A DNA stretch of 64,000 bases from Methylobacterium sp. NMS14P (GTDB lineage Bacteria; Pseudomonadota; Alphaproteobacteria; Rhizobiales; Beijerinckiaceae). A program made the translations under genes and the position numbers. The notes beneath the pieces were generated by a model. The model did not search any database. It saw only the letters and a program-made list of their open reading frames with translations, and was not told the DNA's origin. Of this stretch, positions 5,652 to 57,142 are shown one piece after another; the first letter of the stretch is position 1; every line of letters starts with the position of its first letter. The DNA is taken from assembly GCF_028583545.1 (NCBI RefSeq), contig NZ_CP087106.1, positions 6,183,001-6,247,000 on the forward strand, written 5' to 3'.

Positions 5652-6086
5652 GCGGTTGTCCGTGCTGCTGCAGCACTGGAACGGTCGAGGTGCGGCGAAG
5701 TTCGACTGCGCAGCCGCGAAGGCGTGACGGTGAGGCGGAGCACGGCATCACCACGGTGCCGCCAACGTCTGCGGGCGTTCGGCGCATGCCGTGGTCGAAG
5801 TCGGCCCCGGCCCTGTGCAGGACAGCATCGTGCAGGCCGCCCTGGTGCACGCAGCGCGGCTTTTTGCCGAGGCCGGCGTGCAGGCCTGCCGTGTAGCGGT
5901 TGAAGCCTATGCCATCGCTGTGACGAGCGTCAGGACGGTAGATAAGTCAGCCAGGGTCCCGTCGAGAGCGACGGCGGCGCGGATGAAGGCGTGCATCGGC
6001 GCAGCTCCCAGCGCGTCCGCTTCGGTGCGGTAGTCCAGAGATGCCTGGTGCGCAGGGGTGCTGCAGTGTCGCGGCGCGCGCATGGG

Positions 6087-45400: not shown

Positions 45401-45490
45401 GGAAGGGTGGCCGAGTGGTTTAAGGCAGCGGTCTTGAAAACCGCCGTGGGGGCAACTCCACCGTGGGTTCGAATCCCACCCCTTCCGCCA
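45401..45490 (+). tRNA. tRNA-Ser (anticodon TGA), integration site
   Basis: 90-nt tRNA with a long variable arm, acceptor GGAAGGG and CCCTTCC, encoded CCA, and loop CTTGAAA (anticodon TGA). A tyrosine integrase begins 93 bases downstream, so its 3' end is the likely attachment site of the element that fills the rest of the window. Confidence 0.95.
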
Positions 45491-45582
45491 GCGCATCCGT
45501 AAGTGGCTGATGCGCCACTAAATGCACCGAAATCAGCGGCTTACGAGTAGGCGACTGCTACCCCACGGTGTTATCCGGGAGC

Positions 45583-47370
45583 ATGTCCGACGTGAGCCGC
45601 CACACCTACCTCGCGCAGCGCAAGGGCTCCGCGAACTGGTACTTCAAGGCCAAGGTGCCTCGTGACTTGGTAGCCGCCTTCGGGCGGGAGCAGGTATGGA
45701 AGTCGCTTCGCACCGCAGATCTCGCAGTGGCCAAGCGCCGCGTCCGCGACGAGGCGGACGCATTCGACAAGCAGTGCCGAGCCCTTCGTGACCGGGCAGC
45801 ATCCGATGGCGGCGACACAGTCGGGAGCGTCCCGCTTACTTCGCTGAGCGAGGCCGCGATCGAGCAAATGGCGATCGGCTGGTTCACAACCGTGGCTGCC
45901 GAAGGTGAGCAGCGGGCGCGGATGGCGGTTCCGCTTGATCGAGACGAAGCGCTGATCGGCTTGGGCCAAGAAGAGGCGGCGCTGAACGACCCGGATGACC
46001 TGGGCCTTGATGCGTCCTATCAGACCGCGATCCGCCTTCTCCGAGCCAACGACGTTCGCTTGCTCCGGCGCCAACTCAACACGATCCGCTCCGCCGGATC
46101 GCCGTTGCCGTTCGTGGTGAGCCGAGAGGATGCAGCCTCCGCGCAGTTTCGGCAGCTACTCGCCCTTCTGCGCAGGGGCCGGCTTGAGGACGTCCACCGT
46201 AGCAGGGCGCGGCTGGCAGACGACTACCGGGATGTGGCATTCGATCCCGTGTTCCGGCCGCGGGCCGAGCCGAACGGCAGAACGCTGGCCCAGGTGATCG
46301 CGGCGTTCCGAGCGGAGCCTGAGCGGGCAGGGCAGATCACCAAGCTTCAGCAGACATATGCATCAGTCTTCAGGCTCGCGAGCGAGATGTTCGGGGCGGA
46401 CCGGCCTATTCGTGAGATCGACCGGGAGGAGTGCAAAGCGTTCCGGGCGACGGTTCAGACGCTTCCACCGAACGCAACGAAACGCTTTCCCGGCAAGGCT
46501 CTGGTAGAGGTCGCCAAGTTGACGAAGCCGGAAGCCGATCGTCTGCGTCCAAGCACGATCAACCACTACTTGGACGCCCTTGCCACCCTCTTCAACTACG
46601 CGGAGGGCGAGGGCTGGATCACTCAAAATCCGGCCAAGCGGCTCGCGCTAAAGGGCGTCAAGAAGCGAGGCCGCCGCGACCCGTTCACCACCGCGGAGCT
46701 GACCAAGATCTTCAAGGCTCCGCTCTTCACCGGCTGCTTGGACGATGAGGGCGGCTACGCAAAGCCAGGACTGAACCGGCCGCGACGGGGAAGGTTCTGG
46801 GTCCCACTGATCAGCCTCTTCACTGGGATGCGCCAAGGCGAGATCGCGCAGCTTCGCACCGATGACGTGCGCCTCTTTCAGGGCGTGTTGTGCATCTTCA
46901 TCGCGGCGGATGGCGACGACGTTGACGAGGCTGACCGCAAGCGCATCAAGACGGACGCCGGCGAGCGTTACGTGCCCGTCCATCCCACGCTTGAGCAAAT
47001 CGGCTTTGCCCGCCACGTCGAGCGGATGCGGAAGGCTGGCGTAGAGCGGCTATTCCCGGACATCGTGCGGGGCGCCGATGGGTACTTCAGCCCGTTTTCG
47101 AAGTGGTTCTCACGCTTCCTCGCGGAGGTGGGCGTGAAGCGGGATCGAAACGCCTTTCACTCTTTTCGGCACACCTTCCGGGACGCCATGCGTGAGGCCG
47201 CTGTGCCGCTCGATGCCGTTGTGGCGCTTGGTGGATGGGAGGCCAGTGGCACTCAGGCGGACTACGGAACGGGCCAAATCACCGCGCCGAGGCTGCTGTG
47301 TCACATCGAGCGTATCCGCTACGATGGGCTAGACCTTTCGCATCTCATCAAGGTCGAGCGTGGGACGTAG
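45583..47370 (+). CDS. Tyrosine recombinase/integrase with DUF6538-like N-terminus
   Basis: 595 residues from ATG 45583. The N-terminus (HTYLAQRKGSANWYFKAKVPRDL) matches DUF6538; a SAM-like core-binding region lies around 245-355; the catalytic domain follows with FTGMRQGEIAQL (Arg), RIKTDAGERYVPVHP (Lys region), FHSFRHTFRD (His-x-x-Arg), GGWEASGTQADYGTG (Trp in place of the second His, and the nucleophile Tyr). All essential catalytic residues are present. Located 93 bp after tRNA-Ser. Confidence 0.92.
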   Translation: MSDVSRHTYLAQRKGSANWYFKAKVPRDLVAAFGREQVWKSLRTADLAVAKRRVRDEADAFDKQCRALRDRAASDGGDTVGSVPLTSLSEAAIEQMAIGWFTTVAAEGEQRARMAVPLDRDEALIGLGQEEAALNDPDDLGLDASYQTAIRLLRANDVRLLRRQLNTIRSAGSPLPFVVSREDAASAQFRQLLALLRRGRLEDVHRSRARLADDYRDVAFDPVFRPRAEPNGRTLAQVIAAFRAEPERAGQITKLQQTYASVFRLASEMFGADRPIREIDREECKAFRATVQTLPPNATKRFPGKALVEVAKLTKPEADRLRPSTINHYLDALATLFNYAEGEGWITQNPAKRLALKGVKKRGRRDPFTTAELTKIFKAPLFTGCLDDEGGYAKPGLNRPRRGRFWVPLISLFTGMRQGEIAQLRTDDVRLFQGVLCIFIAADGDDVDEADRKRIKTDAGERYVPVHPTLEQIGFARHVERMRKAGVERLFPDIVRGADGYFSPFSKWFSRFLAEVGVKRDRNAFHSFRHTFRDAMREAAVPLDAVVALGGWEASGTQADYGTGQITAPRLLCHIERIRYDGLDLSHLIKVERGT

Positions 47371-47753: not shown

Positions 47754-48053
47754 ATGGTTCGCCGGATGGTTTCTTGGACCCGGATCGCCCGCGCCGGCCA
47801 TGACAGCCGCCCCGCGATCCCCGCCGGTCTCCTTGGTGCCCGTGCCCAGGTCCAGATGCTCACGCGGTCCCGCCGCTGGCCCCTCGTCACCGCCTCCGGC
47901 ACCTTCGACAAATCCGCCATCATGGCCGCCGCTGCGGTGGCCGCCACCGGGCTCCAGGACCGCCTTGGCATCTCCCGCCGCGAGGCCCTGTCAACTGCCC
48001 TCCGCGCCGCTTGGCAGGCCGCCAAGATGGCCCGCACCGCCTCCGCCCACTAG
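47754..48053 (+). CDS. Small basic protein of the element, 99 residues
   Basis: MVRRMVSWTRIARAGHDSRP and then a Leu/Ala helical part (LGISRREALSTALRAAWQAAKMARTA) that could bind DNA or protein. ATG 47754 preceded by a GAGGCAGGA site. First gene to the right of the operator, so probably under HTH control. No family recognised. Confidence 0.6.
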   Translation: MVRRMVSWTRIARAGHDSRPAIPAGLLGARAQVQMLTRSRRWPLVTASGTFDKSAIMAAAAVAATGLQDRLGISRREALSTALRAAWQAAKMARTASAH

Positions 48054-48063
48054 GATGAGCCCC

Positions 48064-48675
48064 ATGGCCGACAGCACCGCCACCCCCCAGTATCCCCGGG
48101 ACATGAGCGCCCGCGCGGCCCGGGATTACGCCTGGAGTGCGGCCCAGGAGCACCGCGGGACCGTCAGGCGGTTGCTGGAGGCGGGCACTCGCGGGAACGC
48201 CGCCGTCGCGATCGAGCTGAACCGGCTGGCCGCGCCCTCGCCCTCCGGCCGTCGGTGGGATGCGAGGTCCGCGGGACGCCTGCTCAAGCGCCTGGGGGTC
48301 AGGTGGGAGGAGCAGGCCCAACTGGATGCGGAAGCCCTTCGGGAGCCGATGGAGGAGCTGTGGGAAGCCGGGGTCCGGGTACGGGCCCAGGTCGCCATTG
48401 CGCTCACCAGAATGGCCGTTCCCACCCGCGACGGGCGCCCCTGGACTGCGGACAGGGCCGGCACGTTGATCCGGCGCCTGGGCCTGGACTGGTCCGACAG
48501 CGCCCCCAGGCTCCGCCGCGGTAACAGCGTGCCGGAGGTGATCGAGTTCCCCGGGGTGGCGGAGCTGGTGGCCGCGATCGAGCCGGAGGCGACCCCGGTG
48601 ATCGAGGCTACCGGACCGATCCAGGTGTTGAAGCCGCAGGAAGCTGCCCCGCGCCGCCGCGCCATTCGGGTATAG
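48064..48675 (+). CDS. Protein with two tandem recombinase-type helix units
   Basis: 203 residues from ATG 48064. Two copies of the same ~40-residue unit are visible: NAAVAIELNRLAAPSPSGRR with W..RSAGRLLKRLGV, and AQVAIALTRMAVPTRDGRPW with T.DRAGTLIRRLGL. The layout (IA..LN..G.P...G..W....V..LL.R) is that of the DNA-binding "Recombinase" region of large serine recombinases, but no catalytic domain is present. C-terminal tail Pro/Glu-rich. A DNA-binding accessory role is inferred. Confidence 0.65.
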   Translation: MADSTATPQYPRDMSARAARDYAWSAAQEHRGTVRRLLEAGTRGNAAVAIELNRLAAPSPSGRRWDARSAGRLLKRLGVRWEEQAQLDAEALREPMEELWEAGVRVRAQVAIALTRMAVPTRDGRPWTADRAGTLIRRLGLDWSDSAPRLRRGNSVPEVIEFPGVAELVAAIEPEATPVIEATGPIQVLKPQEAAPRRRAIRV

Positions 48676-50297: not shown

Positions 50298-51212
50298 CTA
50301 CGCGGCGATGGCCGCGGGTGGTAGCTGCGCGGCGCGGATATCGGCCGGTGGCCGGAACCCGTGTCGCTCGATCAGCCACGTCTCATTGTAGAGATCTCGG
50401 AACGCCAGCAGGGCGTGGCGCAGATCCTCGACCGTATCGAAGTGCTCGACCCACAACAGGTTCTCCTTGAGGGTGCGGATGAAGCGCTCGGCGCAGCCAT
50501 TCCCCTCCGGGGCGCGCACGAAGGCGGGCGAGCTCGCGATGCCCAGGAACGCGAGCTCCGCCTGGAAGGCGTCCGCCATGTACTGGCTTCCGTGATCGTG
50601 CCGGACGCTCAGGCCGGAGGCGATCTCGGCCGCGAAGCCACCGAAGCGCTGCCGCACCCCTTGGCGGATCGGCTCCAGCGCCTCGAAGCGCGTGGCCCGG
50701 CGGGCCGCATGGATGCCCACGCACTCGGCCGAGCAGTGATCGATGGCCACGAACACCGCGACCTGCCCCTCGGCCGTCCAGGTGGTGGTCAGGTCGGTGC
50801 CCCACATCGTGTCGACCCTGTCCGGGATGATGGTGCCGTCGTGGTTGCGCGGACCGCGCGGTGTGCCGACCCGCGTGGGGGCCAACAGGTCGTGGGCGCG
50901 CATCAGGCGCAGCACCCGGCGCTTGGAGGTGCGCACGCCCTTCATGCGCAGCCGTGCCCAGACCTTGCGATGGCCTTCGCCGTGGAAGGGGCTGTCGGTC
51001 AGGATGGCGCGGATCCGCAGGAGCAGTGCGGCATCCAGCATCGCCCCGACCGGGCCGGGCCGCCGCGCGGGATCGGACCCGGCCTCCGATCCGAGCCCTG
51101 AGCGGGGCGGTGAGAGATGCCGGTGGACGGTGGCGCGCGACACGCGCCAGATCCGGCACACCCGAGCCAGCCCGTAGACGCTGCCGCTGGCCGGCGAGAC
51201 GGTCCGGCTCAT
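50298..51212 (-). CDS. IS3-family transposase OrfB (rve integrase core)
   Basis: 304 residues. An HTH_21-like N-terminal region (VYGLARVCRIWRVSRATVHRH) is followed by the DDE domain: GTDLTTTWTAEGQVAVFVAIDH (first Asp), SVRHDHGSQYMADAFQ (second Asp), FVRAPEGNGCAERFIRTLKENL (catalytic Glu). Complete and apparently intact. Overlaps OrfA by 4 bases (ATGA) rather than through a visible slippery frameshift. Confidence 0.9.
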   Translation of the reverse strand: MSRTVSPASGSVYGLARVCRIWRVSRATVHRHLSPPRSGLGSEAGSDPARRPGPVGAMLDAALLLRIRAILTDSPFHGEGHRKVWARLRMKGVRTSKRRVLRLMRAHDLLAPTRVGTPRGPRNHDGTIIPDRVDTMWGTDLTTTWTAEGQVAVFVAIDHCSAECVGIHAARRATRFEALEPIRQGVRQRFGGFAAEIASGLSVRHDHGSQYMADAFQAELAFLGIASSPAFVRAPEGNGCAERFIRTLKENLLWVEHFDTVEDLRHALLAFRDLYNETWLIERHGFRPPADIRAAQLPPAAIAA

Positions 51213-51565
51213 GGCCGCGACCGCCTGCGGGCCAAAGGGCCGGCGCCACGCGCCTCCAGGGCGGCGACCTTGGCCTCCAGCAGCTCGCGCTCCAGCAGCA
51301 TCTCGCCGAGCTTGGCCTTGAGACGCCCGCTCTCCAGCGCGTCCGCATCGAGGGGCCGGGTGGACAGGCTGGCCTCGCCCGCCGCCAGGAAAGCATCGCG
51401 CCAGCCCGACAAGGTCGCCGCCGTCACGCCCAGGCCGCGCGAGACGCTCTCCAGGTCCTCACCACGCAGAAGCCGCAACACCGCGTCCCGCTTGCGCTGC
51501 CGGGACATGCGCCCACCCCGGCCAGGTCCGACCGAACCGGCAACCGCTCCTGTAGTCGTCGTCAT
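51209..51565 (-). CDS. IS3-family OrfA (helix-turn-helix)
   Basis: 118 residues from ATG 51565. RQRKRDAVLRLLRGEDLESV then LGVTAATLSGWRDAFLAAGE forms the HTH; a leucine-zipper-like coiled coil (KLGEMLLERELLEAKVAALE) follows. DNA-end binding partner of OrfB. Confidence 0.88.
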   Translation of the reverse strand: MTTTTGAVAGSVGPGRGGRMSRQRKRDAVLRLLRGEDLESVSRGLGVTAATLSGWRDAFLAAGEASLSTRPLDADALESGRLKAKLGEMLLERELLEAKVAALEARGAGPLARRRSRP

Positions 51566-51670
51566 CGTTCTCACCCCTGAGGCGGAGACCGTCCGCTAAC
51601 GGGGTGTCTCAAGCAACCGTGGGGCGGAGGAGCCTGCCGGCGACACGGAAGCTACCGCCTCGATCGTTTC

Positions 51671-52319: not shown

Positions 52320-52458
52320 CGTAAACTCCTACCTATGACCTTCGCTGGAAGATCCACCATCACGTTGTGCGATTTGCTCCAGCGTGGCGAGGTACCTGCT
52401 AGTGCGGCAGATTACTTAGGCGTCGACGGTCGCCGCATGCTCTGCGAATGATCCGTGA

Positions 52459-52687
52459 CGATCACCAGTGTGGCGTTGTGCCGCCGGCCGAGGTGTAGGG
52501 CCTTGCGTAGCTCCGGCCGATCATCCCAGATGTTGCTCTCCACCTCCACCAACTCGGCCAAGACGTTCCGTTGTCCTCCATTCAGGAGGTGCGGTGCCGC
52601 TTGCCGCTGCGCCTCTAGGTCAAGCCCGGAGCGGTCCAGCAACGCCGTGGAGACCCGCAGGTAGACGACTAACTTGCCCTATGTCAT
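52459..52687 (-). pseudogene. Serine recombinase N-terminal relic (stop at codon 3, C-terminus missing)
   Basis: This segment aligns without gaps to 54501-54729 (N-terminal half of the intact recombinase at 53995), with a constant 2042-base offset. It starts ATG ACA TAG GGC, so codon 3 is a stop. The readable part is LEAQRQ..LLNGGQRNVLAELVEVES, RPELRKALHLGRRHNATLVI. It ends abruptly after VTDHS, losing the rest of the catalytic domain and the C-terminus. It represents a second, decayed recombinase of the same family. Confidence 0.85.
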
Positions 52688-52782
52688 CGCTGTTCCCCGA
52701 GGTTCTGCAATGCTCTTGCGAATGGTCCCAGATAAATTGCCCATGTCTTAGGTGCTAACAACCAACATGAAGTTTTTTCTGA

Positions 52783-53160
52783 TCATCCATCTCGTGATTG
52801 TATTAGCAAACTCGAAATAACATTGCTAATTTCCTTTGATGAGAGAGTGTTTTTTAGCAGATTGGTAAATTCTTCCTCGTTGGATACTTGAAATGCCGTA
52901 CCTCTAAACGGGATAAATACAGTGCCTGGATAAAGTAGAATTGTATGTTTATAGCTCAGAACGCTGTACCTAAAACCAGACAATGCCGGAGCTGTGATAA
53001 ATAACGTATGATTTATACTTTGCGACTCACTTGAGGTCGCGACTTCGGCTTGAAGCAGACCTTTAGTAGCATCAGTAAGAGCACTCGCTTGCTCTTTCAG
53101 CATAGCCGCTGGAGTTCTAACGTCCCCAACATCAGGAACCGCCCAAAAACCTGCGCTCAT
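52783..53160 (-). CDS. Unknown protein, partner of the endonuclease-fold gene
   Basis: 125 residues from ATG 53160, overlapping the upstream gene's stop by 4 bases (ATGA) and preceded by GAAAGG. The sequence (FWAVPDVGDVRTPAAMLKEQ, QSINHTLFITAPALSGFRYSVLSYKHTILLYPG, FQVSNEEEFTNLLKNTLSSKEI) looks like an alternating beta-strand fold with a helical start. No recognised family. Codon and base usage are clearly AT-richer than the host. Being translationally coupled to the endonuclease-fold gene, it is probably a functional partner (inhibitor, sensor or subunit). Confidence 0.75.
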   Translation of the reverse strand: MSAGFWAVPDVGDVRTPAAMLKEQASALTDATKGLLQAEVATSSESQSINHTLFITAPALSGFRYSVLSYKHTILLYPGTVFIPFRGTAFQVSNEEEFTNLLKNTLSSKEISNVISSLLIQSRDG

Positions 53161-53984
53161 GGCACGTACCTTTCCGTATCTAGGTAAATTTTTATTGGTA
53201 GATGATCAGAGATACTTCGATCCGTGGTAGTTTTACTTAGAAGGCTTCTCCCCCTAATTTGATGGATTATCTGAAAACATCCATCTGTGTAATACGTAAG
53301 CAAATTTGGCCGTAGTAAGCATTGATCGAAGAAATTCCAATATAAATTAAAAATATCACCGCCATTGTTGTAATAGAATGTTCCCGGCGACACCGAACTT
53401 TCATCTCCTAACAAATTCCAACACGGATTAAAAAAGAATTTCCATTTTTTGCCATTAACATTCCGGGATACACGCATTGCTATCCTTTTGTCCATCGTAG
53501 CGTGAAATCCATCTGCTGCAATCATGGCATCTTCATATGGATTAATATTCAAATCTCCGATCACAAGTGTGTTGCTATGACCCAACCGATCTTCGCAACG
53601 GTAAATTTCGTTGACTAATCCGCGAACCACGAAATGTTGATTTTTATCATCTTTGTACAACTTACTTGGTAAATGACAGAACACAAGCAGAAGCGGTAGC
53701 CCTACAGGTGGTCTAAATTCTCGAATAGAACTTCTACCGTCATCATATAAAGCTTTAAAACACGATAAGTCGTATCGAACAAAAACTCTTACGTAACTAT
53801 CAACTACTTTGTATTCTCTGAAGACCCTCTGTGATATATTGCCATTAAGACTTATAAGGATTTCGCTGCTGCTCTCAATACATTCGGCTAGTACCAATAT
53901 ATCGACATTATTGTCCTCGCAAGCGCTCGCCAACAATCTAGAAACATTGTTTTTAGCCAAATTCCAAAACATGAATACAGGCAT
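53157..53984 (-). CDS. Endonuclease/exonuclease/phosphatase (EEP)-fold protein
   Basis: 275 residues from ATG 53984. All EEP catalytic motifs are in order: FWNLAKN (N8), VLAECIE (E34, metal ligand), FCHLPSK (H104), VIGDLNINPY (D144 and N146) and ISDHLPI (D260, H261). The fold is shared by DNase I, exonuclease III and phosphoinositide phosphatases. No signal peptide or additional domain, so it is probably cytoplasmic and hydrolytic towards nucleic acid or a phosphate ester. It lies 10 bases downstream of the serine recombinase stop on the same strand and overlaps its partner by 4 bases. The AT-rich composition, unlike the host, shows recent transfer. Confidence 0.85.
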   Translation of the reverse strand: MPVFMFWNLAKNNVSRLLASACEDNNVDILVLAECIESSSEILISLNGNISQRVFREYKVVDSYVRVFVRYDLSCFKALYDDGRSSIREFRPPVGLPLLLVFCHLPSKLYKDDKNQHFVVRGLVNEIYRCEDRLGHSNTLVIGDLNINPYEDAMIAADGFHATMDKRIAMRVSRNVNGKKWKFFFNPCWNLLGDESSVSPGTFYYNNGGDIFNLYWNFFDQCLLRPNLLTYYTDGCFQIIHQIRGRSLLSKTTTDRSISDHLPIKIYLDTERYVP

Positions 53985-53994
53985 AATAGACCTG

Positions 53995-54729
53995 TCAGAC
54001 GGGTGAGACAGATATGCGGAGAGTTGCTCGCTGAACCTGCACGGCCGACCATGCTCCTCCTCGAGGGGCCGGGATAGCACGACGGTTCAGCGCCGCTGCA
54101 ATTTCTCGAAGCGACACAGCGCCCGCTGCCTTCACGTCGGCGATGATCGGGGCGAGGTCGGCTGCCCGGCCGTTGGCGATCTCCGTTCGGCGGGCTCTGC
54201 CCAGTGCGCGGCCTTCGTCCCGCTTGCCCAGGTTGGTTGGATTGCCGAGGCTGGTCGCCTTGCCGGCGGCCTGAAGCGCGGCCCGGTCCGCATTGGATAG
54301 AGTGGCATAGTAGCTTCGCTTCGCCGCGAGGGCTTCCCGAGTGCGCTTGGCGATCATCTGCCGTTCGGCTTGCGCCACCACGGCCATAATGCCCACTACC
54401 ATCTCGTTCGCCTCCGGCATGTCGGCCGCCACGAAGCGGACGCCAGCCTTCTGGAGGCCGAGCAGGAAGTGAGCGTCACGGGAAAGGCGGTCCAGCTTGG
54501 CGATCACCAGGGTGGCGTTGTGCAATCGGCAGAGGGCCAGGGCCTTGCGTAGCTCCGGCCGATCATCCCGGCTGCCGCTCTCCACCTCCACCAGTTCGGC
54601 CAGCACGTTCCACTGTCCGCCGTTGAGGAAGTTGGCGACCGATTGCCGCTGCGCCTCCAGGCCCAGCCCGGACCGGCCCTGCATCTCCGTGGAGACCCGC
54701 AGGTAGGAGACGAGCTTACCTTGTGCCAC
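53995..54729 (-). CDS. Serine recombinase (resolvase/invertase family)
   Basis: 244 residues from GTG 54729 (GGGAG at 6 bases). N-terminal catalytic domain: LVSYLRVSTEMQGRSGLGLEAQRQ (nucleophile Ser in YLRVST), ALALCRLHNATLVIAKLDRLSRD and GIMAVVAQAERQMIAKRTREALAAKR. The C-terminal region SLREIAAALNRRAIPAPRGGAW is a recombinase-type DNA-binding motif. The active-site Arg/Asp residues are present. The protein end (QRATLRISVSPV) falls at the boundary with the AT-rich cargo. Possibly able to mobilise or rearrange the flanking region. Confidence 0.88.
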   Translation of the reverse strand: MAQGKLVSYLRVSTEMQGRSGLGLEAQRQSVANFLNGGQWNVLAELVEVESGSRDDRPELRKALALCRLHNATLVIAKLDRLSRDAHFLLGLQKAGVRFVAADMPEANEMVVGIMAVVAQAERQMIAKRTREALAAKRSYYATLSNADRAALQAAGKATSLGNPTNLGKRDEGRALGRARRTEIANGRAADLAPIIADVKAAGAVSLREIAAALNRRAIPAPRGGAWSAVQVQRATLRISVSPV

Positions 54730-54860
54730 GGCTGCTCCCGGAGGTGCTGCTACATTCGTGCGAACGAGCGTCAGGAAGAATGTAACGCTCCCCTGTCCTA
54801 CGCCGGTTCGACCGTGTACACAAGTGCTACAAAAACCGGTTGCAGATTTTGGGGGGCATC

Positions 54861-55175
54861 GTGAGCAGCAGAACAAGGGTGACGGAGGCCGCGCTGGCGC
54901 TGCTGGCACAGTCGCGTGCGGAGTTGCCGAAGGTCAACATCCGGAGGCGGAAGCCGCGGGGCGACCCGGCAAAGGGCGTGGCCGAGCTGAAGGCAGTGGC
55001 GGACAAGCGGGCCGCGGCATTGGCCCCAGTCGTGACCGAGCTGAAGGCGGAAGGGCACAGCAGCGTGCGGAAGCTCGCCGACGCCATGAACGCGCGCGGG
55101 GTCCCCACAGAGCGCGGCGGACCGTGGCACGTGACGGGCGTCCAACGCCTGCTGAAGCGGATCAAGACGCTCTAG
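54861..55175 (+). CDS. Small recombinase-motif DNA-binding protein
   Basis: 104 residues from GTG 54861 (GGGGGG directly upstream). The C-terminal SSVRKLADAMNARGVPTERG followed by PWHVTGVQRLLKRI is the same recombinase-type unit found in the 53995 and 48064 proteins; the N-terminal half is basic and helical (RAELPKVNIRRRKPRG). No catalytic domain. Divergent from the recombinase, with only 131 bp between the starts. Confidence 0.65.
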   Translation: MSSRTRVTEAALALLAQSRAELPKVNIRRRKPRGDPAKGVAELKAVADKRAAALAPVVTELKAEGHSSVRKLADAMNARGVPTERGGPWHVTGVQRLLKRIKTL

Positions 55176-55201
55176 ATCGCGTTCTACAACCTGGAGGATC
55201 T

Positions 55202-55531
55202 ATGGGCACAGTCGGCACCGGTACTCTTCGCCTTGAAGGGCGTTACACGCGGCCGGAGCACGAGCCGCCGCCCCTCACCTTGCTCTGTAGCTCGATCAGG
55301 TATCGAGAGGCAGAGTTCAAGGAGACGAAGGGCGCCGGGGGCGATGTGATGCGGTCGGTGACCGTTCAACCGTCGCTTGAGGTTTCTGGCCTGCCGGCCG
55401 ATTTCCAACAGGCGAAGGGTGATTGGACGCACATCATCTGCGCCTTGCTGCCGAAGGGTGAGGGGGAGCTGGTAGACATCGTGCCGCTCGGGGGCGATCG
55501 GGCTCGGTTTGTCGTCAAGTACGCACACTAG
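55202..55531 (+). CDS. Small unknown protein, 109 residues
   Basis: ATG 55202 preceded by CTGGAGGAT. GTGTLRLEGRYTRPEHEPPP, LTLLCSSIRYREAEFKETKG, VQPSLEVSGLPADFQQAKGDW and VPLGGDRARFVVKYAH show an all-beta, possibly barrel or Ig-like fold. No family recognised. Confidence 0.6.
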   Translation: MGTVGTGTLRLEGRYTRPEHEPPPLTLLCSSIRYREAEFKETKGAGGDVMRSVTVQPSLEVSGLPADFQQAKGDWTHIICALLPKGEGELVDIVPLGGDRARFVVKYAH

Positions 55532-55642
55532 CTCAACGCCTTGACGGCTTGATAGCACGACGGCTCGATCGCGCGCCCGCTAGACGTTGAGCAAGCGGGC
55601 CGGCTCGATCGGCTGCCGTTTTGACGGATCGTTAAGGAGACG

Positions 55643-55780
55643 GTGAGCGTGCTCGACGCCATGGCGGCCGCGGAGCGGAAGGCCCTCCGCCGGATCGCTC
55701 TCGATCAGGATACCACGGCCCAGGCGTTGGCGGAGGAGGCCATCCGGGACGTTCTACGCCGGCACGGACACGGCGCCTGA
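55643..55780 (+). CDS. Tiny ribbon-helix-helix-like protein, 45 residues
   Basis: GTG 55643 with AAGGAGA upstream encodes VSVLDAMAAAERKALRRIAL followed by DQDTTAQALAEEAIRDVLRRHG. This has the strand/two-helix profile of stand-alone RHH DNA-binding proteins (ALRRIA..TT.QAL.EEAI..LL). Likely binds DNA, perhaps its own promoter. Confidence 0.5.
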   Translation: MSVLDAMAAAERKALRRIALDQDTTAQALAEEAIRDVLRRHGHGA

Positions 55781-55808
55781 TCTCTAGCTCGCGAGGCGTC
55801 TTGCTATC

Positions 55809-56507
55809 ATGACCGCTAGACGCCTTCTGGATGGAGCGCGGTGGCGCCGTGACCGCGAGCCCACGAAGCCGGAGAGCCGCATCAAGGTCAACTTGAGCTT
55901 GGTCATCTCCGTCGTGGCGCTCTTGGTGTCCCTCTTCTCGGCCTTCTACTCTCTGGTGGACGAACGCTACGATCTCCGGATGGCTTCCTCCTTTGCCGTT
56001 CCGGAGGTGATCGCCAGCGACCCGCCGCTGATCAGGTCGCAGCACACCCTTACCTTCATCAACAACGGCAACCGCCCGGTCGCGATCAACGAGGTAGCCT
56101 TGATCGTCCAGCCGACGATGAAGAGCTACGACCAACTGAACCGGGTGAACTGCGAAATCGAGCTTATAGGGCCCAATGCGTTTCGCCGGGCCTACGCGAA
56201 GGTCGCTCCCTTCACCGTGAAGGCCGGAGAGATAGAGACGCGGGTCTTCAGCTTCGCAGACACCATCGGAGACGCAAACACGGCCCGCTTCCGGGACAGC
56301 AGCCCGAACCACCTTCTGTCCTGCATCCAGGTCGGCTTCGTGTCGGCGCAGAACGCCTTCAACGAACTCGTCCCCTATGCGTGGGCACCCAAGGCGTCAG
56401 GCTTCGGCCAGACCTTCACGGAGGTGCAGTTCTTCCACCACTCCGGCCCCGTGCAACTCGTGAAGAGCCGGTGGCCCTTCATGCCCGACCCCGTAGCATC
56501 GGAATGA
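55809..56507 (+). CDS. Single-pass membrane protein of unknown function, 232 residues
   Basis: ATG 55809. Basic N-terminus, one helix (VNLSLVISVVALLVSLFSAFYSLV), then an extracytoplasmic beta-rich domain with HTLTFINNGNRPVAINEVALIV and FTVKAGEIETRVFSFADT. NNGNRPV is typical of Ig-like or CARDB-like domains. No recognised family. From 56508 to 57055 no gene was found. Confidence 0.6.
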   Translation: MTARRLLDGARWRRDREPTKPESRIKVNLSLVISVVALLVSLFSAFYSLVDERYDLRMASSFAVPEVIASDPPLIRSQHTLTFINNGNRPVAINEVALIVQPTMKSYDQLNRVNCEIELIGPNAFRRAYAKVAPFTVKAGEIETRVFSFADTIGDANTARFRDSSPNHLLSCIQVGFVSAQNAFNELVPYAWAPKASGFGQTFTEVQFFHHSGPVQLVKSRWPFMPDPVASE

Positions 56508-57055
56508 ACGGCCGAAGCCCCTGCCAGGGACGCCGGCCGCCTTCAAGCCGTCTAGATAGCAAGCCTACAAGGTGTCTACCGATGGAGCCGTCTAGTCACT
56601 GAACGACTGCCGCTCCCGCGATGCCCCCGCCGGTCCGCCGCCACCCCCAGGAAGTGTGCCGACGCTACGGCTGTGCAACAACCGCCGCGGCATCAGGATA
56701 ATGATGTACCGCGAGACCTACGAACCGCTGTAGGTGCGGTCCTGCCCGACGCCTTCGGTGAACCGGCCGCCACCCTCGATCACGCGTAGGTGGCTCCGGG
56801 CAGCCTCCCAGAGCTGTTTCGGGCCCATCAGCCGCGTGCGCAAGCTCTACAGCCCTTGCTGACCCTCTCCGGGGTCCATCGTGTCAGGTGCCCTGTGGAC
56901 CGTCGGGTGCGTCAACGCACCATGATCCGCGGATTATCGGACCAAGTTCCTGAGTTAGGTCATGCTGGATCGTATTGCCGACGCAATGTGCGTGCTGCCT
57001 ACTCTTAGCCAGCGTCACCTAGACAAGGCGGACTGGCGGAGAGGAGGTGAGGGCT

Positions 57056-57142
57056 ATGACGGCAGTGTATGTACTGCTGGCCGCTTCGCACGCTGGTGCG
57101 GCGGTCGGGTACGGAATGCTGCTGCTGAGCCACCTGAGCTAG
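57056..57142 (+). CDS. Tiny hydrophobic peptide, 28 residues
   Basis: A strong GGAGG with about 8-base spacing precedes ATG 57056. Product MTAVYVLLAASHAGAAVGYG ending MLLLSHLS is one transmembrane helix. The start site is one of the best in the element, which favours translation, but the size leaves doubt. Could be a toxin-like or holin-like peptide. Nothing was found in 57143-57304. Confidence 0.4.
   Translation: MTAVYVLLAASHAGAAVGYGMLLLSHLS

Follow-up and report, generated by a model that had tools for sequence, protein, structure and literature searches.

The stretch of DNA analysed here (the window) comprises 64,000 nucleotides from Methylobacterium sp. NMS14P (contig NZ_CP087106.1, positions 6,183,001 to 6,247,000), and our subject is a pair of adjacent minus-strand genes within it. 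The upstream gene (53157..53984, ATG start, TGA stop) encodes a 275-residue DNase I-like enzyme of the endonuclease/exonuclease/phosphatase (EEP) fold, and the downstream gene (52783..53160, ATG start, TGA stop) encodes a 125-residue protein, hereafter the partner. The two frames overlap by four bases (ATGA, 53157..53160, minus strand), an arrangement through which translational coupling is likely and co-transcription would be expected. The GC content of the pair (52783-53984) is 39.6% compared with 69.1% for the window, and the minimum of sliding 1202-base stretches (step 20) falls at 52761; the AT-rich segment holding the pair measures about 1.29 kb (52723..54010, upper boundary approximate) and has recombinase copies on both sides. 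An earlier note, made from the sequence of this locus, had described an AT-rich cargo in a GC-rich window, composed of an EEP-fold protein and a 125-residue protein overlapping by four bases on the minus strand, and had named N8, E34, H104, D144/N146 and D260/H261 as the enzyme's motif residues. Each of these statements was borne out, the residues by an alignment of 99 EEPs. The genome holds no second EEP of this family (one match in all at E <= 0.001).

Membership of the enzyme in the DNase I-like superfamily is evident from its predicted fold, which lies near DNase I, ExoIII, APE1 and TDP2. The same comparison placed sphingomyelinase, mannosyl-phosphatase and nocturnin at Z 18.2-18.4, with the best row at Z 19.1, and the fold alone therefore leaves the substrate unfixed. 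A search of PDB sequences with the EEP profile gave seven matches, all exodeoxyribonucleases (best E 0.0018). Active-site residues hardly vary: in the 99-EEP alignment (89 of a main branch that includes the window's enzyme, plus 10 of a distant branch described below), columns N8, E34, H104, D144, N146, D260 and H261 carry the same residue wherever present, the exceptions being N146S in locus L058 and H261S in locus L075, and gaps affect 1 to 5 rows per column, D144 and N146 excepted. Conserved FYNPxW and WxxxDQ motifs define the enzymes as a sequence family of their own. The window EEP falls under the PF03372 gathering score (17.8 vs 24.5 bits), and PF03372 is present in 18 of 25 listed relatives according to the source's precomputed annotation. 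The possibility that the enzyme is a well-known housekeeping phosphatase lacking a partner, raised in the earlier note, was not supported by its matches, which include no known housekeeping equivalog; the window EEP does not match xth (the NCBIfam Xth equivalog) at E <= 1, and the EEP of L113 reaches 13.5 of the 99 bits of the Xth cut-off. No PADLOC 2.0 (2023) model matches the window EEP or partner at E <= 1, and none matches the EEPs of L103, L109 and L113 or the partners of L103, L109, L112 and L113 at E <= 0.01.

The association between the two genes proved nearly obligate. A protein search listed 26 EEPs, the window's own included, and their alignment was used as the next query, reporting 344 coding places among genome contigs and a further 8 on viral contigs; the best 80 of the former were fetched and examined with the 8 viral ones (88 of 352 reported loci). 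The main partner profile detected a partner downstream of the EEP in 85 of the 88. Two of the other three, L016 and L019, end at a contig edge and are omitted from the pairing count, and the third, L096, carries a partner of the distant branch; a homologous partner follows the EEP in all 86 loci with enough downstream DNA. The EEP gene comes first in every paired locus, and the partner match starts no more than 61 bases from the end of the EEP frame in 80 of 85 loci (103-343 bases in the other five). A third gene at a fixed place was not apparent, none recurring in more than three loci among the 25 clusters listed. One locus from a Desulfobacterales genome (L024, 2771-4172) has a single EEP gene followed by three different partner genes in tandem.

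Genome samples gave the same picture from both directions. These comprised 398 genomes from the window's phylum, 247 from the phylum of genome G408 and 151 from the order of genome G413; the centre genomes (G000, G408 and G413) are counted in the samples, G408 and G413 having been picked as carriers, and a close EEP was defined by E 6.3e-60 or better. Pooled, a partner lies beside 14 of 14 close EEPs and an EEP beside 14 of 16 partners (per sample, 3/3, 2/2 and 9/9 close EEPs, and 3/3, 2/3 and 9/10 partners). Together with the 86 testable loci, these counts answer the earlier note's suggestion to check for conserved co-occurrence in the affirmative. A partner occurring mostly on its own was not what we found: 2 of 16 places are without a whole EEP, one of them beside a remnant. 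The distribution is patchy, with a partner in 3/398, 3/247 and 8/151 genomes. In the 398-genome sample the partner and the close EEP share the same three genomes, where they are adjacent, and 17 more genomes have weak EEP matches only (E 6e-17 or weaker). Two of the three partner-bearing genomes in the 247-genome sample have a close EEP; the other, G672, has an intact-looking partner (L101, 893-1324, minus strand) beside a small transposase-like gene, presumably of REP/IS200 type, and the genome is without an EEP match of the family. The 151-genome sample has 10 partner places in 8 genomes, nine beside an EEP (one of these frames spanning residues 75-269 only) and one beside a 59-residue EEP remnant (G413). 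In a further 32 carrier genomes, chosen for holding the pair and left out of these frequencies, close EEPs number 37 (E at or below 4.2e-64) and each has a partner; of four additional partner matches, two are tandem copies, one adjoins a remnant and one is a fragment of 39 residues.

The partner represents a previously undescribed family of small proteins dedicated to the EEP. Its predicted fold (a helix, a five-strand sheet and two helices) has no clear PDB match, and its family is undescribed in all four family libraries searched. The window partner belongs to this family at E 1.9e-32 against a partner profile built without it, and matches no Pfam family at E <= 1, including PF00436, the domain of the single-stranded DNA-binding protein (SSB). 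Neither a known toxin or antitoxin family nor PF00436 occurs among the weak families listed for 57 partners (best 25 of 29), and no known DNA-binding domain was found in the partner. The pair is likewise undescribed in the literature searched, where the slash-written name of the EEP family could not be used as a search term, and the available portions of PMC13092281, PMC12904381, PMC8683028 and PMC8190604 contain no mention of it.

Both proteins co-evolve under purifying selection. EEP and partner distances correlate at r 0.70 (n=79; 79 of 86 rows, the window included, after dropping those with a short EEP or partner), with 0.19 the highest value of 1000 shuffles, and shared descent of the hosts contributes to this correlation. 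Five close pairs gave ratios of nonsynonymous to synonymous substitution (dN/dS) of 0.10-0.32 for the EEP and 0.13-0.17 for the partner. The hosts span 15 phylum-level groups by record title, and a quick EEP tree (omitting L110 and L116, truncated and the same as L111 respectively) mixes them, with 26 changes of phylum label where the 15 groups would need at least 14 and shuffled labels average 45; 35 of its 88 inner branches are weak, bin titles can mislead and the Klebsiella-titled bin L011 is suspect.

A tblastn search of plasmids with the EEP gave three partial matches that led to the distant branch, which we viewed in 13 regions out of a total of 39 records matched, 34 of them plasmid and 5 phage. 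Comparison of distant and main branch profiles gave 99.8% (E 1.8e-28) for the EEP and 93.7% (E 1.9e-7) for the partner, the latter a single comparison with an optimistic E; in an 11-sequence set the main-branch partner model matches 10 of 11 distant rows, or 8 of 9 different proteins, at E < 1e-3, missing L115. A small gene stands right after the EEP or its remains in all 13 regions, 98 bases away in pEC904. Two chromosomal EEPs that are weak with the main profile (L150 and L151) group here too, each with a partner of the distant type. Its carriers are largely mobile. Klebsiella accounts for 20 of the 34 plasmid records, 17 of these being 3541 bp, and two regions were typed as ColRNAI; no recognisable cargo besides the pair is carried by the 3541-bp plasmid L103 or by the 3066-bp Escherichia coli plasmid pEC904, which the available part of PMC8190604 names only as a previously known 3-kb plasmid. 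The branch further occurs in a 3.3-kb Edwardsiella plasmid, where the EEP is broken, in a Proteus chromosome-sized record, in an uncultured 5.2-kb plasmid, in a Vibrio filamentous phage and in a Photobacterium plasmid, where replication/integrase genes lie on one side of it and type VI secretion genes on the other. In two Acinetobacter phage records an integrase, the EEP, the partner and an FRG-type gene stand one after another, an A. baumannii record repeats the pair with its FRG gene, and AbiD abuts the EEP in two Acinetobacter plasmids (PADLOC AbiD E 6.3e-67 and 1.8e-55). A 19.5-kb viral contig (L108) has a DinI-like gene (5694-5981) shortly after its pair, hinting at SOS-linked cargo.

The earlier note had suggested looking for the pair near defence genes, and in the distant branch such genes do occur, AbiD and annotated FRG genes each adjoining the pair in 2 of 13 regions. 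For the chromosomal branch 262 nearest-two neighbours were listed, and the 128 from loci L009-L049 were scanned. The recurring Pfam families among them are mainly metabolic or translational, Uma2 (2) excepted (best 25 of 114). PDC-S03, found in two neighbours, was the only PADLOC model matched twice, and models for type IIG restriction, methyltransferases, GajB/helicase, Drt8 and AbiLi were matched by single neighbours. The chromosomal neighbourhoods neither support nor exclude a defence role.

Some partners end in the manner of an SSB. The tip of the SSB tail is the part bound by SSB clients, and the E. coli tip reads DDDIPF (PMC11981726, available part). Using acidic residues followed by [IL]PF at the C terminus as the criterion, five main-branch partners (L025, L029, L046, L080 and L084) have acidic residues and a terminal IPF as bacterial SSBs do, and a sixth (L042) ends DQDDPF. 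The tip is enriched, occurring in 5 of 73 called partners against 2 of the remaining 1304 called genes (p 7e-6, Fisher test); the 73 come from 85 partner loci, and the crude gene caller left false genes among the 1304. No further [IL]PF tip was found among partners missed by the caller, and 38 further partner proteins include two with the tip (P0038 and P0049). Within the distant branch it is present in L103, L105, L106 and L108 and not in L096, L104, L109, L111-L115, L150 and L151; the window's partner (P0002) has no such tip. On the quick EEP tree the tip state changes at least six times when L042, L103 and L105 are counted as tip-bearing. In a separate locus (L095, 4548-4802), an 84-residue called gene just upstream of the pair also has an SSB-like tip, ESEDLPF.

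Partner tips resemble those of the SSBs of their own hosts, which end DDDIPF (L046, L025), DEDIPF (L029), EDDVPF (L084), DDDEPF (L042) and, in three of four copies, EDEIPF (L080); the genomes of L046 and L080 have second SSB copies with other ends. Agreement extends to 30 of 36 residues, with a mean of 24.8 over 720 pairings (p 0.008). This test used the tip of three of the four L080 SSBs, and the fourth, best-scoring one gave 27/36 (p 0.008); p is 0.05 when L042 is left out. Local variants include EDEIPF in an Anaerolineales genome, DEDIPF in a Desulfonema bin and D[DE]PF in another bin. Because the partner's tip resembles that of the host SSB, these six cases point to a host factor, rather than the co-evolving EEP, as its probable target. 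One tentative extension, which we regard as possible and no stronger, is that the partner serves as a hook copying the host SSB tip, which would tie the nuclease to SSB-binding pockets of the host replication and repair machinery or compete with SSB, letting the cell punish invader replication, with the tip having arisen anew in different lineages so as to match the SSB present there.

Taken as a whole, the sequence evidence makes it reasonably probable that the pair is a new mobile two-gene conflict module, of a defence or toxin-antitoxin kind, with the EEP as catalytic effector and the partner as its dedicated binder. The earlier note had proposed a new anti-phage or nucleic-acid-processing module, and the near-obligate pairing, the almost invariant active site and the mobile contexts of the distant branch agree with it; its recombinase-based unit (see below) and a setting near defence genes for the chromosomal copies are not supported. 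Under the conflict-module reading, the EEP would be a DNase I-like, metal-dependent nuclease with DNA or some other nucleic acid as its substrate, and the partner, made from the same message, would bind it physically and hold, aim or silence it. In tip-bearing lineages the pair may dock where SSB hands DNA to its clients, at the replication and repair machinery on single-stranded DNA. Invader replication or loss of the partner might then serve as the trigger, upon which the nuclease would act on the invader or, abortively, on the cell itself. Toxin-antitoxin behaviour and defence are not exclusive, as ToxIN and DarTG illustrate. A classical type II toxin-antitoxin or addiction pair, in which the partner binds and blocks an EEP toxin and the two together stabilise plasmids and islands with no primary anti-phage role, is a doubtful account. 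The pair does consist of two adjacent small genes that co-occur, it is the sole recognisable cargo of L103 and pEC904, L024 has extra partner copies in tandem, and no close EEP in the genome samples is without a partner, whereas partners lacking a whole EEP exist: one by itself (G672/L101), one next to an EEP remnant (G413) and one as a solitary fragment (G404). That asymmetry amounts to three cases only, however, and the EEP-first order and the want of a known DNA-binding domain in the partner count against a classical pair. To our knowledge, the EEP is not an established type II toxin fold.

A role in DNA repair or recombination, with an ExoIII/APE1-like nuclease and a small SSB-like loader serving plasmids, phages and cells at stalled forks, would suit the fold neighbours DNase I, ExoIII, APE1 and TDP2, the SSB-like tips and the metabolic neighbourhoods; we consider it unlikely in view of the patchy distribution across the three samples, an EEP that is no Xth equivalog and a window partner with no Pfam match, SSB included. 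Hydrolysis of a nucleotide signal, lipid or phosphoester instead of DNA or RNA, with the partner as inhibitory subunit, appears highly improbable: the Z values of sphingomyelinase, mannosyl-phosphatase and nocturnin would allow it, whereas the purely exodeoxyribonuclease PDB matches of the EEP profile and the SSB-like tips point to DNA transactions.

Several known systems come close to the conflict-module candidate. DNase I and exonuclease III (PF03372) share its fold, but the EEP here forms its own family (FYNPxW, WxxxDQ) with the window protein below the PF03372 cut-off, and a small partner gene is present in all testable loci. Type II toxin-antitoxin systems resemble it as short bicistronic pairs with close or overlapping genes, borne by small plasmids and islands, patchily distributed and with the partner sometimes alone; in contrast, the window's proteins match no known toxin or antitoxin family. 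Colicin-type nucleases with immunity proteins on ColE1 plasmids offer a nuclease followed by a small partner, as on the ColRNAI plasmid, yet a 297-residue EEP is too short to include receptor and translocation domains as well, and no lysis gene is among the four annotated genes of L103. According to the available parts of PMC10732053 and PMC12904381, AbpAB, Hachiman, Retron-Eco8 and Nhi link nuclease defence to SSB, and the AbpA and AbpB genes overlap by four nucleotides, as do those of the window. Those systems, as far as these texts describe them, contain helicase, OLD or retron components and react to the SSB of phages, whereas here the partner sometimes bears the SSB-like tip itself and no third gene recurs. 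The DNase I/exonuclease III enzyme class gains here a dedicated small partner, undescribed in the libraries searched, which occurs on plasmids and in prophages as well as in a filamentous phage. Should the pair be a defence or toxin-antitoxin module, one more effector fold would join the list, and the host-like SSB tips would provide a handle on target finding and a tie to reports of defence systems watching SSB.

The pair of the window travels in what is likely a 20.5-kb genomic island at tRNA-Ser that reaches beyond the window on its right side. The tRNA-Ser gene (45401-45490) is adjoined by a plus-strand tyrosine integrase (45568..47370, DUF6538 and Phage_integrase), both absent from the earlier note. 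The 16-base 3' end of the tRNA (45474..45489, plus strand), the likely left attachment site, is repeated exactly at G000:C1:6248934, 20.5 kb downstream and 1.9 kb past the end of the window (E 6.8e-4 over a searched length of 21.6 kb), with no further copy elsewhere in the window. A tRNA, an adjacent integrase and a direct repeat of the tRNA end are the usual anatomy of a tRNA island. None of 20 relatives searched, 12 of which belong to the same genus, has the 2.2-kb flank of the pair at 54900-57100. Given this anatomy and the missing flank, the island is most likely the vehicle of the pair and the serine recombinases its fellow passengers. The recombinase-based mobile unit proposed in the earlier note is not upheld, as no serine recombinase figures in the recurring neighbour families shown for the relatives' loci.

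The recombinases themselves lie outside the module. The minus-strand copy at 53995..54729 has a Resolvase domain (PF00239, E 1.3e-25), and its earlier description as complete was slightly generous, since its C-terminal residues are altered: they are unlike the ends of the genome's other copies (for example L005), and the frame seems to have run into the AT-rich segment. The decayed relative previously noted on the other side is genuine, an N-terminal fragment of a second serine recombinase (52412..52687, minus strand) with a TAG near its start; 52456-52722 is 79% identical to 54498-54764 over 267 bases, covering the N-terminal part and upstream DNA only. Two plus-strand pieces that resemble Recombinase C-termini (with matches to Recombinase / HTH_62 and none to the Resolvase domain) lie at 54840-55172, a scrap unmentioned in the earlier note, and at 47800-48672, and these may mark a small graveyard of serine recombinases. 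Also inside the island is a minus-strand IS3-type transposase pair (50298-51574; rve and HTH_21, with HTH_28/HTH_Tnp_1 below cut-off).

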